From Luminiphilus sp. (GTDB taxonomy: Bacteria; Pseudomonadota; Gammaproteobacteria; Pseudomonadales; Halieaceae): a stretch of DNA of 40,514 nucleotides. Positions 35,943 to 40,514 of the stretch are shown piece by piece. Each line of letters begins with the position of its first letter. Within the stretch, counting starts at the first letter, position 1. Made by a program: the position numbers and the translations under genes. The stretch spans positions 1-40,514 of the forward strand of contig JADHNP010000017.1 of assembly GCA_016779445.1 (NCBI GenBank), written 5' to 3'. The notes beneath the pieces were generated by a model, which made no database searches, was not told the origin of the DNA, and saw nothing but the letters and a program-made list of their open reading frames with translations.

Positions 35943-36009
35943 AAAAAGGCTCTCTCATCTGTATAAATTTCGGGTCGGCAGACTAACCGATGTCAACTGC
36001 ACAAACCAC

Positions 36010-36348
36010 TCAAGGGACGTCGATCAAACCCCGGCGACGCCACCATAAACTCACTACCGCACCCGCAATCGCACTGGCGACGAGCCAGACACCTGGCCAC
36101 ACTGCCGATGAGACACCCTCGCCGAATACGGTATTAAAGATCACAATAATAAGTGCTGGTGCCACAGTTTCTGTGGCCTCTCCGGGAAAAGCCGGGGCCA
36201 GCAGCAGGCCTGCCAAACAGCCAAGCATCGCGGCCGCTCCCCGCCCGGGGCTAACAGAGAACCACAGCCGCTTTAGCAACCAAACGCCGCCGATTGCCGA
36301 AACCCAGTAAAGCAAGAGCGCAATCAGATAGGACTGTGTTGTCAGCAT
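36010..36348 (-). CDS. Small membrane protein, unknown function
   Basis: A 112-residue protein with about four hydrophobic segments (residues 6-26, 36-53, 62-75, 84-102) and a positively charged C-terminus (WWRRRGLIDVP). I do not recognise a family. It lies 14 bp after ycgL on the same strand, so it is probably in the dnaX-recR-rnd-ycgL block. The ATG has no clear Shine-Dalgarno. Coding is supported by the operon position and the consistent hydrophobic pattern, but not by homology that I can name. Confidence 0.65.
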   Translation of the reverse strand: MLTTQSYLIALLLYWVSAIGGVWLLKRLWFSVSPGRGAAAMLGCLAGLLLAPAFPGEATETVAPALIIVIFNTVFGEGVSSAVWPGVWLVASAIAGAVVSLWWRRRGLIDVP

Positions 36349-36362
36349 CCACGTCGCTCCAT

Positions 36363-36638
36363 TCAGCGTCGCCCGATCTGGGGGTCGGGCGGTAATTGCA
36401 GAAAATAACCTCGCGCGCGAATGGCTTCCATTACGGTCGTTGCCGACTGCGCCGCCAAGGTTCGATCAGGTGTCAGCGTAATTGAGAGTACTTTTTCAGG
36501 CGCACGGAACAAAGCGCAAAGATCCGCTGGCCAGCAGTCTGGTTGCAACTCACTCGGGACAAACAAAAATGTGAGCGGGCGGGCCGCTGTCTTGTAGACA
36601 TCCACCTCCAATGCACTTATTTCAGTCGCGTGTGTCAC
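36363..36638 (-). CDS. YcgL domain protein
   Basis: The 91-residue protein fits the YcgL family through DVYKTAARPLTFLFV near the start and a C-terminal ARGYFLQLPPD. Its function is unknown. Members commonly follow rnd in pseudomonads, as here. The GTG start at 36638 overlaps the rnd stop by 4 nt, so the two are coupled. About nine extra residues precede the usual start at EVDVYK. Confidence 0.85.
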   Translation of the reverse strand: MTHATEISALEVDVYKTAARPLTFLFVPSELQPDCWPADLCALFRAPEKVLSITLTPDRTLAAQSATTVMEAIRARGYFLQLPPDPQIGRR

Positions 36639-37741
36639 GCCGTCGCCTCTGAAAGCCAGTGTCGCAATGGATCGACAACCACCTCACCACGCCATCCCAA
36701 CCAAGTGGCGGGACTCATGATCGATATGTCGGACTGTTGCCGGATTAGATGCTCGAGATCAGCTTTTGGCATCAAGATCGCGGGGGCAATGCCCAGTTCC
36801 GTGGCAACCACACCCAACCGTTCCGAAAGCGCACCCAACAACTGGCGCTGCGCGCCAGACAATGGACTGGGGCCAATTTGAGAGCGAAGTGACGGAATAT
36901 CCCCCTCGAGCGCGGCACTGATCGCAGCAACGAGATGCTCTCCCGCCCTACGCACCAATCCACCGGGCATATCGGGTATCTCTGACAACTCGCGCACAGA
37001 GCGCGGCACCGACCGGGCAATCGCAGTCAGTATCTTGTCTCCTAGAATCCAGCTCCGCGGCCGATCAAGCCTGCGCGCCTCGGCTTCCCGCCAGTCAACG
37101 GCTGCCACTAGCGCACACTGTTGCGCGTCCGAGAGTTTATACGCTGACTTGAATTTAGTGATCGGAGCCTTGCCCCCAGGCGTCATACGTGCAGCGTCCT
37201 CTAAAACCCATGGCGCTCTGCCCAATGCAGTTGCCCGCTCGAGCAGCCGACTGCCTATCGGGTGCAGATAGATCACATCTTGGGCGGCATAGTCGGCCTG
37301 ACTGTCAGACAGGGGCCGGTGCAACCAGTCCGACTGGGTCTCATCCTTTGGTAGATCAATTTCGAAAAAGTCGGCCACCATCGCTCGATAACTCATTCCC
37401 GAGTCCATACCCAAAAGAGCTGCAGCACGCTGCGTATCAAATAGTGGTGCTGGCAACACGCCCAACCAATGGGAAAACACCTCCAAATCCTCACTGGCGC
37501 TATGAATAAACTTGGTTTGGGTCGAGTTGATCAACAGTTCCCGAAGCGGCGCTGCGTGACCCACCTGCAACGGATCAACCAGATAGGCCTTATCTCCCCA
37601 ACAAAGCTGCACCAAAGCGACAATAGGGAAAAACGTATCCCGACGCCTGAACTCGGTATCAATTGCGACCGATTCCGCACCGCGATGCGCAGTAATCACT
37701 GCCTCAAGTTCAACCGAACTTTGAATCCACTCCCAATTCAC
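36635..37741 (-). CDS. rnd: Ribonuclease D
   Basis: RNase D trims tRNA 3' ends. The 368 residues match the family. The DEDDy exonuclease core shows Asp28-Thr-Glu30 in VAIDTEFRRRDTFFPIVALVQL and the later ADYAAQDVIYLHPI with the catalytic Tyr; an HRDC domain follows (around 205-275, WREAEARRLDRPRSWILGDKIL). The GTG start overlaps the recR stop by 4 nt, and the stop overlaps ycgL by 4 nt. Confidence 0.94.
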   Translation of the reverse strand: MNWEWIQSSVELEAVITAHRGAESVAIDTEFRRRDTFFPIVALVQLCWGDKAYLVDPLQVGHAAPLRELLINSTQTKFIHSASEDLEVFSHWLGVLPAPLFDTQRAAALLGMDSGMSYRAMVADFFEIDLPKDETQSDWLHRPLSDSQADYAAQDVIYLHPIGSRLLERATALGRAPWVLEDAARMTPGGKAPITKFKSAYKLSDAQQCALVAAVDWREAEARRLDRPRSWILGDKILTAIARSVPRSVRELSEIPDMPGGLVRRAGEHLVAAISAALEGDIPSLRSQIGPSPLSGAQRQLLGALSERLGVVATELGIAPAILMPKADLEHLIRQQSDISIMSPATWLGWRGEVVVDPLRHWLSEATA

Positions 37742-38340
37742 TCGTCTACTACCGTCCGTCCACTTAAAGCGTGTGCCAAGGTGCTCGAGTCGGTATATTC
37801 GAGCTCGCCTCCCAAAGGAACTCCGTGTGCGATACGTGTCACTGTCACTTTGGCATCTTTGGCTTTTTGGCTAATAAAATACGCCGTTGCCTCTCCCTCC
37901 ACAGTGGGGTTGGTCGCCAAGATCACCTCTTCAATCACTCCTTCATCAAAACGAGCGCATAGGCTATCCAGCCCAAGCTGTTCTGGGCCAATACCGTCTA
38001 TAGGTGACAAGTGGCCCATCAGCACATAGTAATGACCTCTGAATCCGCCGCTTTGCTCTATCGCCATGACATCGGCGGGAGCCTCCACCACACACAATGT
38101 CGCAGGGTCGCGCTTGGGGTCAACGCAGATTTCACAAACATTGAGCTCGGTAAAATTACGGCACCGCTCGCAGTTCTGTACCTTGGCCAACGCCGTTTCG
38201 ATGGCCTCAGCGATAAGCTGGGCGCCATCCCGATCACGCTCAAGCAAATGCAGAGTCATGCGTTGAGCAGATTTGGGGCCCACGCCAGGCAAATGACGCA
38301 AACTGTCAATCAAAGCGGCGATAGACGGACTTAACTTCAC
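37738..38340 (-). CDS. recR: Recombination protein RecR
   Basis: RecR works with RecO/RecF to load RecA at gaps. From a GTG at 38340 it is 200 residues (E. coli 201): helix-hairpin-helix LRHLPGVGPKSAQRM (15-27), a four-cysteine zinc finger (Cys57, 60, 69, 72), TOPRIM with VVEAPADVMAIEQSGGFRG, and a C-terminal GGELEYTDSSTLAHAL. A longer frame runs back to 38421 but the extra 27 residues have no family match and overlap the dnaX end. It lies 49 bp after dnaX with no ybaB in between, contrary to the usual arrangement. The GTG has only a distant GGAG. Confidence 0.95.
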   Translation of the reverse strand: MKLSPSIAALIDSLRHLPGVGPKSAQRMTLHLLERDRDGAQLIAEAIETALAKVQNCERCRNFTELNVCEICVDPKRDPATLCVVEAPADVMAIEQSGGFRGHYYVLMGHLSPIDGIGPEQLGLDSLCARFDEGVIEEVILATNPTVEGEATAYFISQKAKDAKVTVTRIAHGVPLGGELEYTDSSTLAHALSGRTVVDE

Positions 38341-38389
38341 TTTACTGAGGTCTCCAAAGCATTCGCCGAAAACATGATCGCAACCCCAC

Positions 38390-40336
38390 TCAGGCCTCTG
38401 AGGCCTGCTCAAGGTCAGCATCTATTTCCGGATGTTCAACATCAACAGCCATCGGCCTAATGCTACCGGGGATGATCTCGCCGTCAAATACACGCATCAG
38501 TGTGTGCAGAGCATCATCACTGGCAATCGCTTGCTCGGCATCGGCGAGCCTTGCGGCAGCGGCCGCTGCGCGTCGATTAGCGGGGGTATGGCCCTGGTGT
38601 CTGTCGACAACTATCGTTGCCATGATCGATTCATCCACCTGCTGCCGCAGTGCTTGCGTCAACTGCGCCGCGTGGCGCTCGTTGAGCAGTGCAGAATCCG
38701 ATTGGGCGATCGTAAAATTCAATTCCTTGCCAGAGCAGTGACTTAATTCGAGGTGCAGGGCAATGTTGTGCAGAATGCCGCCAAAGCGAAGTTCTTCAAA
38801 CAGAACCGGCCAACTGTCCTGGGTGAAATGTGATAGCGCGTGCGCGGGAGGCAACGTCGTGAGATCGTCATCTTTCGGCTCAACGACTTCGCCGGCCGGC
38901 ATCTTCGGTGAGGCCAGCCGCACCTCCGGCTCACGAGACAAAGTGCCCACCGCTTGCCCCTCTGATTCGCGCTTCGCGTGCGCAGGTATCTCACCTGCTG
39001 AATTCACACATCCAGCGTGTTGAAATTCAGTCTGACTGGCGTTCTCCGGTGTTGCGTCATCCCTCGGATCAGTCCCTTCCACCCCGCGCGCTGGATCAAC
39101 ACTAGCCGTTTTTGAAACAGCGTCATCCAAACTTTGCACTGCGGCGGCGCCTGACCGACTGACCTTCTCGACCCGGGGCTCCACCGGCGCCGCCGGTGGC
39201 TCAGGCTTTTTTGCCGGGGGCGCTCCTGCTGGGCCGTCACCATGAATGACCACAGCGGGTCGGAAAGCAATCATCCTCAGGAGGATCATCTCCAGTCCCG
39301 CTCTCGCTGACGAGGCCAGATGCACATCGCGACGACCCGACACTGCCATTTGCCAAAACAATTGGGTGTCATCAATAGTCGCTCTGCTCGCCAGTTCGAC
39401 GATACGTGCCTGATCAGGCCAGCTGGTGTCGAGTGCTCCCGGGACCATCTGTGCCACGGTCATCTGATGCAAAATACTGCTCAGCTCATCTAGCGTTGAG
39501 ACATAATCTGGCGCGTGCTCGGCAATGTTAGCGACCAGCTGCAATACGGCGGCAGCATCTTCCTCCAAGATAGCAGCAACCAGATCCAGCACCCGGCCGC
39601 GGTCCACCGTCCCCAACATTTCGGCCACTTCGGCTCCCTGCAGACGCCCCTCACCGTAAGCGATCGCCTGATCCGTTAGGCTCAAAGCGTCTCGCATGGA
39701 TCCGTCGGCCGCCCGCGCAATCAGTGCTAGTGCCTCCGGCTCGGCGGTGATCGATTCGGCGGTCAAAATGTGTTGCAAATGAGACACAATCTGCTCAGGT
39801 TGCATGTTCTTCAGGTTGAACTGTAGACATCGCGACAATACGGTAGCAGGGAGCTTTTGCGGGTCTGTTGTTGCGAGCAGAAACATGGCGTGGGGAGGCG
39901 GCTCTTCCAAGGTCTTTAAAAGTGCATTGAAGCTGTGATTGGACAGCATGTGCACTTCGTCAATGAGATAAATCTTGTAGCGCGCGCGCGTTGGCGTGTA
40001 CTGCACATTTTCGAGTAGCTCGCGCGTGTCCTCCACCTTGGTTTTGGAGGCTGCATCGACCTCAATCAGGTCCACCGATCGTCCTTCAGCAATCTCCGCA
40101 CACGCGCCACACTCGCCACACGGTGCAGCGGTGATACCGGCATCACAATTGAGACATTTAGCTAAAATGCGCGCGACCGTCGTTTTACCCACGCCTCGGG
40201 TTCCCGTGAACAAGTAGGCGTGATGGAGACGGCCCGACTCGAGGGCGTTGACCAACGCCTGCAGAACATGCTGCTGACCGACCATCTCAGCAAACGTGCC
40301 GGGGCGCCATTTACGGGCCAGAACCTGATAGGACAT
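38390..40336 (-). CDS. dnaX: DNA polymerase III clamp-loader subunits tau/gamma
   Basis: From the ATG at 40336 the protein has 648 residues beginning MSYQVLARKWRPGTF, the standard DnaX start. Walker A GTRGVGKT is at 45-52, the zinc site Cys64/73/76/79 follows, then LIDEVHML and KTLEEPPPHAMFLLATTD. A Pro/Ala/Glu-rich linker starts near residue 365, and the tau-specific C-terminus follows. A complete frameshift signal at codon 377 predicts a 378-residue gamma form. An open frame from 40387 overlaps the SRP RNA and is not the real start. Confidence 0.96.
   Translation of the reverse strand: MSYQVLARKWRPGTFAEMVGQQHVLQALVNALESGRLHHAYLFTGTRGVGKTTVARILAKCLNCDAGITAAPCGECGACAEIAEGRSVDLIEVDAASKTKVEDTRELLENVQYTPTRARYKIYLIDEVHMLSNHSFNALLKTLEEPPPHAMFLLATTDPQKLPATVLSRCLQFNLKNMQPEQIVSHLQHILTAESITAEPEALALIARAADGSMRDALSLTDQAIAYGEGRLQGAEVAEMLGTVDRGRVLDLVAAILEEDAAAVLQLVANIAEHAPDYVSTLDELSSILHQMTVAQMVPGALDTSWPDQARIVELASRATIDDTQLFWQMAVSGRRDVHLASSARAGLEMILLRMIAFRPAVVIHGDGPAGAPPAKKPEPPAAPVEPRVEKVSRSGAAAVQSLDDAVSKTASVDPARGVEGTDPRDDATPENASQTEFQHAGCVNSAGEIPAHAKRESEGQAVGTLSREPEVRLASPKMPAGEVVEPKDDDLTTLPPAHALSHFTQDSWPVLFEELRFGGILHNIALHLELSHCSGKELNFTIAQSDSALLNERHAAQLTQALRQQVDESIMATIVVDRHQGHTPANRRAAAAAARLADAEQAIASDDALHTLMRVFDGEIIPGSIRPMAVDVEHPEIDADLEQASEA
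39181..39227 (-). promoter_or_regulatory. dnaX: Programmed -1 ribosomal frameshift signal in dnaX
   Basis: Three elements stand in order on the minus strand: internal Shine-Dalgarno AGGAG (39227-39223), a 10-nt gap, slippery A AAA AAG (39212-39206, in frame as GCA AAA AAG), a 6-nt gap, and a perfect 8-bp hairpin CCACCGGC-GGC-GCCGGTGG (39199-39181). After a -1 slip the next codons are GCC then TGA, so gamma would end Lys-Lys-Ala at residue 378. E. coli dnaX uses the same heptamer, the same 10-nt Shine-Dalgarno spacing and also stops one codon later. Confidence 0.85.
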
Positions 40337-40359
40337 GCTTGACCATCCGTGAGTAGGGA

Positions 40360-40469
40360 GGCGACTCGGACAGCCACACCCCGGCACCCGAGTCAGTAAC
40401 TACCGTTGCTCCCTTCCGGGCCTGGCGGGGTTCGTCACTTATCGCTGCGAGGGGACCATCCGAGTCACC
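40360..40469 (-). ncRNA. ffs: Signal recognition particle RNA (4.5S RNA)
   Basis: The minus strand contains the SRP domain IV core CCAGGCCCGGAAGGGAGCA (about 40426-40407) with the GGAA tetraloop and the asymmetric loop that binds Ffh. The ends pair perfectly: GGTGACTCGGA (40469-40459) with TCCGAGTCGCC (40370-40360), giving a 110-nt RNA of the small bacterial type. Its 3' end is 23 nt from the dnaX ATG, with no terminator between. Confidence 0.93.
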
Positions 40470-40475
40470 ACAAAG

Positions 40476-40491
40476 CCCACCGCAGGGTGGG
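40476..40491 (-). terminator. GC-rich stem-loop just upstream of ffs
   Basis: CCCACC-CTGC-GGTGGG forms a 6-bp stem followed by CTTTG on the minus strand, six nt before the ffs 5' end. It could end an upstream transcript beyond the window, but the T-run is short. The remaining bases to 40514 show no gene. Confidence 0.3.
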
Positions 40492-40514
40492 GGCGCTAGT
40501 GTCGCGAAATCCCC

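Follow-up and report, generated by a model that had tools for sequence, protein, structure and literature searches.

According to the available parts of the published accounts, about 50% of ribosomes shift frame on Escherichia coli dnaX (PMC5009743), and the role of the gamma product, which has been linked with mutagenesis by Pol IV (PMC5009743), has been disputed in that species (PMC5009743, PMC3290774). Similar sequences are described in all enterobacteria, most other bacteria being said to keep no frameshift signatures, and Pseudomonas aeruginosa dnaX gave only tau in recombinant E. coli (excerpts of PMC3290774). Neisseria and Vibrio are given as further dnaX frameshift cases (PMC3711429, in part), and gamma frameshifting is attributed to many bacteria in the accessible text of PMC5009743. 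Among the titles listed by a literature search, thin on subscription journals, none reports dnaX frameshifting in the Halieaceae, and PMC10885494 makes no mention of dnaX.

The window, by which we mean the whole 40,514-nt stretch of DNA analyzed, belongs to a genome of the Halieaceae, of the genus Luminiphilus or close to it, with an assembly of 2.47 Mb rated 86.8% complete. The small SRP RNA, dnaX, and recR lie in this order on the minus strand at the end of the window, the longest recR open reading frame running into the end of dnaX. The dnaX product scored 749 bits against NCBIfam NF005942 (cut-off 613), with Pfam domain III at residues 235 to 357 and tau domain V at 505 to 622. Within the gene lies a cassette that very probably works as a -1 programmed ribosomal frameshift signal like that of E. 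coli dnaX, from which we infer production of gamma. The features are as follows.

40365..40461, minus strand: small SRP RNA (Rfam RF00169, 68.4 bits), upstream neighbor of dnaX, outside the signal
38390..40336, minus strand: dnaX, DNA polymerase III tau subunit, 648 aa, ATG at 40336 (NCBIfam NF005942, Pfam)
37738..38421, minus strand: recR (TIGR00615, 251 bits), downstream neighbor of dnaX
39223..39227, minus strand: Shine-Dalgarno (SD)-like AGGAG, 10 nt ahead of the slippery heptamer (sequence reading)
39213-39222, minus strand: 10-nt gap from the SD-like motif to the heptamer (sequence reading)
39206..39212, minus strand: slippery heptamer AAAAAAG, read A_AAA_AAG (Lys376 AAA, Lys377 AAG)
39200-39205, minus strand: 6-nt spacer CCTGAG between heptamer and stem
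39181..39199, minus strand: hairpin, perfect 8 bp with a 3-nt loop, starting 6 nt past the heptamer
39192-39199, minus strand: hairpin 5' arm CCACCGGC (sequence reading)
39189-39191, minus strand: hairpin loop GGC (sequence reading)
39181-39188, minus strand: hairpin 3' arm GCCGGTGG (sequence reading)
39201..39203, minus strand: -1 frame stop TGA, one codon past the slip
39201..40336, minus strand: predicted gamma reading (codons 1-377, one-base slip back, GCC for Ala378, TGA)

The sequence-only reading had described this cassette at 39181-39227, with its AGGAG, spacings, in-frame A AAA AAG, hairpin, and TGA, and had predicted products of 648 and 378 residues; on re-reading the minus strand, the coordinates, the frame, and both lengths were correct. 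In the -1 frame the slip site reads AAA AAA GCC TGA, giving a gamma C terminus AKKA at residue 378. The predicted gamma would keep the ATPase, the lid, and domain III, which ends at residue 357, the slip lying at codons 376 to 377.

By analogy with E. coli, the anti-SD of a ribosome translating dnaX would pair with AGGAG and the hairpin would hold it while tRNA-Lys(UUU) sits on AAA AAG. A fraction of the ribosomes would then slip one base back to AAA AAA, add one alanine, and stop at TGA, releasing gamma of 378 aa with domains I to III; the remaining ribosomes would continue to tau of 648 aa. Such a gamma would be usable in the clamp loader but would be missing the core-binding part that tau adds (domain V, 505-622), and the signal would set the proportion of clamp-loader subunits that tether polymerase to those that do not. 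The tau/gamma ratio and the use of the products are presumed here on the same analogy. Pattern searches and ARAGORN, which would overlook a CUU gene with an atypical sequence, found one tRNA-Lys gene with UUU and none with CUU in each of four genomes, the window's being 86.8% complete.

Fifty loci were taken as genus-level relatives, many of them one genome present under both a handle and a name. An in-frame heptamer is carried by 46 of them, which represent 35 distinct cassettes with the window's included (distinct over 68 nt; 33 are distinct over the 50 nt modeled). The four loci giving no cassette are L042 and L071, which are one contig (G011 contig 6) with an interrupted dnaX frame and an intact heptamer and hairpin, the interruption being a sequencing error or real; L050, which ends ahead of the site; and L070 (717 aa, genus membership unsure), which has no in-frame heptamer. 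Relatives keeping the protein and dropping the hairpin or the heptamer, which had been named as the case against the signal, were looked for, and the outcome favors the signal: A_AAA_AAG is kept by 35/35 cassettes, each having an A run of precisely six and then a G, and all eight stem pairs by 34/35, L030 losing the top pair. The -1 stop is at the same place throughout (TGA in 33, TAG in 2). The top stem pair is U-G in 17, C-G in 16, and U-A in 1; at the third pair, 31 cassettes have A-U and 4 have G-U. One of twelve purine-rich SD-like pentamers, the exact AGGAG in 6/35, is present in every cassette, ending 10 nt (30 cassettes) or 12 to 13 nt (5 cassettes) upstream.

Of 25 genus genomes, 20 were matched by the cassette model, with E values no higher than 3.4e-11; the genomes G003, G013, G015, G021, and G023 gave no such match and no DnaX match better than E 1e-19, and these assemblies seem to be without a dnaX gene. 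In the order-wide scan described below, 31 of 34 genus rows showed the heptamer, and L009, L010, and L020, which have short tau frames, showed it when no end margin was applied. Two assemblies each bear two dnaX contigs (G004, C8 and C115; G033, C27 and C42), which are probably mixed strains.

To assess selection at the nucleotide level, the 35 distinct sequences were aligned by codon, and 61 columns of invariant P, V, A, T, or G outside codons 370 to 386 served as the control. No control column (0/61) uses a single codon, the top codon having a mean share of 0.49, whereas inside the cassette three of four such columns do (Pro381 CCG, Pro384 CCG, and Val385 GTG, each 35/35). The third codon positions of the relatives' stem, which the sequence-only reading had proposed to compare, are frozen there and nowhere among the comparable columns. 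Pro380 is encoded only by CCA (31) or CCG (4), both of which pair with U. Lys376 is AAA and Lys377 AAG in 35/35, while AAA and AAG both occur in each of the seven other invariant lysine columns. Six different residues are found at codon 375, which nevertheless always ends in A, and codon 379 encodes E, D, or R, yet the -1 frame stop is always completed. In two cassettes TGA has become TAG while the 0-frame residue becomes Arg, so it is the stop that is kept and not the amino acid. The same sequences double as their own control, and shared ancestry is therefore no explanation for the frozen codons. These frozen synonymous positions are the strongest evidence for the signal, and on the sequence evidence as a whole the heptamer, the SD-like motif, and the stem are kept by selection at the nucleotide level. 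Covariation was dropped as proof of the stem because variation is too scarce, and the synonymous positions carry the weight instead: six of the eight pairs are invariant, one pair has one double change, 226 of 500 shuffles equaled the covariation measure of the stem, and the structure slid by -3 columns had a higher covariation score, though only 64% of its cells pair.

The sequence-only reading had called a full signal notable in this lineage. The signal itself stands as real, but it is not special to this genome, being a genus-wide trait and common in the order. Among nine other genera of the family, 14/14 fetched loci (14 of 16 matched genomes) have an in-frame heptamer, and the -1 stop either keeps its position there or lies at most five codons beyond it. 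The order sample comprised 84 other dnaX genes, 13 of the family and 71 from outside it, its counts excluding open-ended loci, repeats, and 13 listed loci that were broken or truncated, came from Opitutae, or had uncertain kinship. In the linker, 49 genes carry an in-frame heptamer and 2 an out-of-frame one (family, 12 versus 0; outside, 37 versus 2), at codons that vary along the tau linker from 372 to 535, and no in-frame heptamer was found in the N-terminal parts of the 84 genes. In the stretch scanned, 35/84 genes lack an in-frame heptamer, or 31/84 once the last 150 residues are included; without the end margin, 53 are in frame and 4 out of frame. The in-frame site of L124 sits in an A10 run, and those of L067, L122, L130, and L132 sit in A7 runs.

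The slip is followed by the -1 stop within at most two sense codons at 37/50 order sites, compared to 30% of 12,025 control positions, and SD pairing of -6 kcal/mol or better occurs at 42/50 sites versus 57/502 control positions. The stems are weak, with a median of 5 bp versus 4 bp in controls and at least 6 bp in 15/50 versus 73/502. By these counts the order appears to share the heptamer, the SD-like motif, and the stop, the strong stem being mostly confined to the genus of the window. Outside the order, 3 of 28 loci carry an in-frame heptamer, one of them with an SD-like motif, the 28 being the best-scoring out-of-order loci of the class search (180/187 genomes matched) and not a random sample. 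A tree of 95 DnaX N-terminal domains, made by a quick method with 42/92 inner branches open and several long branches, requires at least 11 changes of heptamer presence or absence, with gain and loss not separable; under its state rule a heptamer among the last 150 residues went uncounted, with presence assigned by hand for L109 and L009 and L145 (codon 448) left as absent. No link between the signal and Pol IV was seen: dinB was above the cut-off in 74/78 genomes, and among the four genomes lacking it, G382 and G107 have the heptamer and an SD-like motif, G103 has the heptamer without an SD-like motif, and G050 has no heptamer.

If chance or ordinary coding constraint in the Pro/Ala-rich linker had produced the cassette, the GC richness of the linker and the conservation of the peptide K-K-x-[EDR]-P-P-x-x-P-V itself would fit, but the synonymous positions would not be frozen. 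In 4000 synonymous resamplings of codons 366 to 395, with codon usage taken from three window reading frames including dnaX, the heptamer appeared in 5.1%, a stem of at least 8 bp in 1.1%, and one of four SD-like motifs in 13.4%, while the three together appeared in 0/4000. The cassette is also unique in the genome by both searches made: the stem palindrome (7 outer pairs, any 5 bases between) has a single occurrence in the 86.8% complete assembly, and the covariance model, with 150 of 1768 candidates scored, matched dnaX with 74.2 bits and gave one further match at E up to 0.5, namely this palindrome read on the other strand. Coincidence of this kind has a practically negligible probability. 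RNAfold gave exactly the 8-bp hairpin on a 39-nt stretch (-20.1 kcal/mol, z -2.58); with 28 nt added downstream, z was only -0.68, the fold being no more stable than shuffles.

A signal that is real and selected might instead serve folding, by pausing the ribosome where the clamp-loader domains give way to the tau tail, with little gamma made. The site does lie directly past domain III, and comparable stem-loops pause ribosomes according to part of PMC7282821; however, a pause requires neither the slippery heptamer nor the -1 stop, both of which are in 35/35 genus cassettes, and the preference for the reading frame among the other dnaX genes of the order (49 versus 2) argues against it as well, and we consider a pause unlikely. 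Gamma could also be a product of transcriptional slippage at the A run, the route used in Thermus thermophilus, where dnaX slips on nine As (PMC1088944, in part). An A run is present here too, but at six As followed by G in 35/35 cassettes it is shorter than the 9-A runs described in the available text of that paper, and slippage by RNA polymerase leaves the SD-like motif and the stem unexplained, which makes this route very improbable. Programmed frameshifting by the ribosome is the preferred reading.

Other motifs were seen in the C-terminal parts of the dnaX genes. In-frame linker heptamers C_CCA_AAG and G_GGA_AAG with SD-like motifs are found in L114 (codon 411), L139 (412), L142 (416), and L115 (374); some C_CCA_AAG/G_GGA_AAG sites have stable downstream folds, and they are possible replacements of A_AAA_AAG. 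A9 to A10 runs occur in the tau linker at codons 374 to 441 in L032, L045, L049, L068, L124, L159, L179, L180, L182, and L075 to L078. Over 122 dnaX loci, the C-terminal parts (97,602 nt) contain 13 such runs and the N-terminal parts (127,704 nt) contain 0. The runs are candidates for gamma production through transcriptional slippage, and most of the lineages that have them do not have an SD-backed A_AAA_AAG. T_TTT_TTT followed by GA, with an immediate -1 stop, is present in the tau C-terminal part of L014 (codon 503), L019 (526), and L022 (450), and may be coincidental to the peptide (Phe-Phe-Glu/Phe-Phe-Asp).

Within the genus, the signal is kept nearly letter for letter while DnaX identity falls to about 50%, which points to selection for making gamma in free-living marine bacteria. 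A broader proposal, which we hold tentatively and give somewhat less than even chances, is that in the order of the window, and perhaps beyond, selection keeps the gamma product itself by changing means, that is, a moving A_AAA_AAG, C_CCA_AAG/G_GGA_AAG, and A9 to A10 runs elsewhere. If true, gamma would matter widely in nature, contrary to the view that most non-enterobacteria lack it. Because some lineages of the order have the signal and others do not, the role of gamma becomes approachable by comparison. Annotation based on Rfam RF00382 (DnaX frameshifting element) would miss these sites: with that family (gathering score 35 bits), positions 36000-40514 of the window were unmatched at E up to 1 and the locus L001 at E up to 10, E. 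coli scoring 96.8 bits in the same run as the latter.

Among known systems, Caulobacter crescentus has the same kind of product, but its gamma comes from proteolysis of tau with no frame shift (PMC5009743, in part). T. thermophilus shares a short DnaX form made from one gene by slipping on As, and differs in that RNA polymerase slips on a nine-A run, as described in the accessible part of PMC1088944, whereas the window has six As with ribosomal stimulators; Thermus-type runs of about nine or more As were found in none of the 35 genus cassettes. The likeness to E. coli dnaX that had been pointed out, including the 10-nt SD spacing, holds: E. coli has AGGGAG, 10 nt, and A_AAA_AAG, sharing with the window the gene, the frame of the heptamer, the TGA one codon past the slip, a hairpin close downstream, and the peptide K-K-x-E-P ... 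P-V around the site. The two differ in the spacer (6 nt in the window versus 5 nt), in the hairpin (perfect 8 bp with a 3-nt loop versus a longer, interrupted stem), and in the codon of the slip site (376 versus 429). The cassette model built from the genus finds the E. coli site with 16.7 bits (E 0.0045 over 152 kb). Judged by these shared elements, the site of the window belongs to the known E. coli dnaX-type signals, although RF00382 does not recognize it, and in the genomes sampled such signals are commoner outside the enterobacteria than the review PMC3290774 states.
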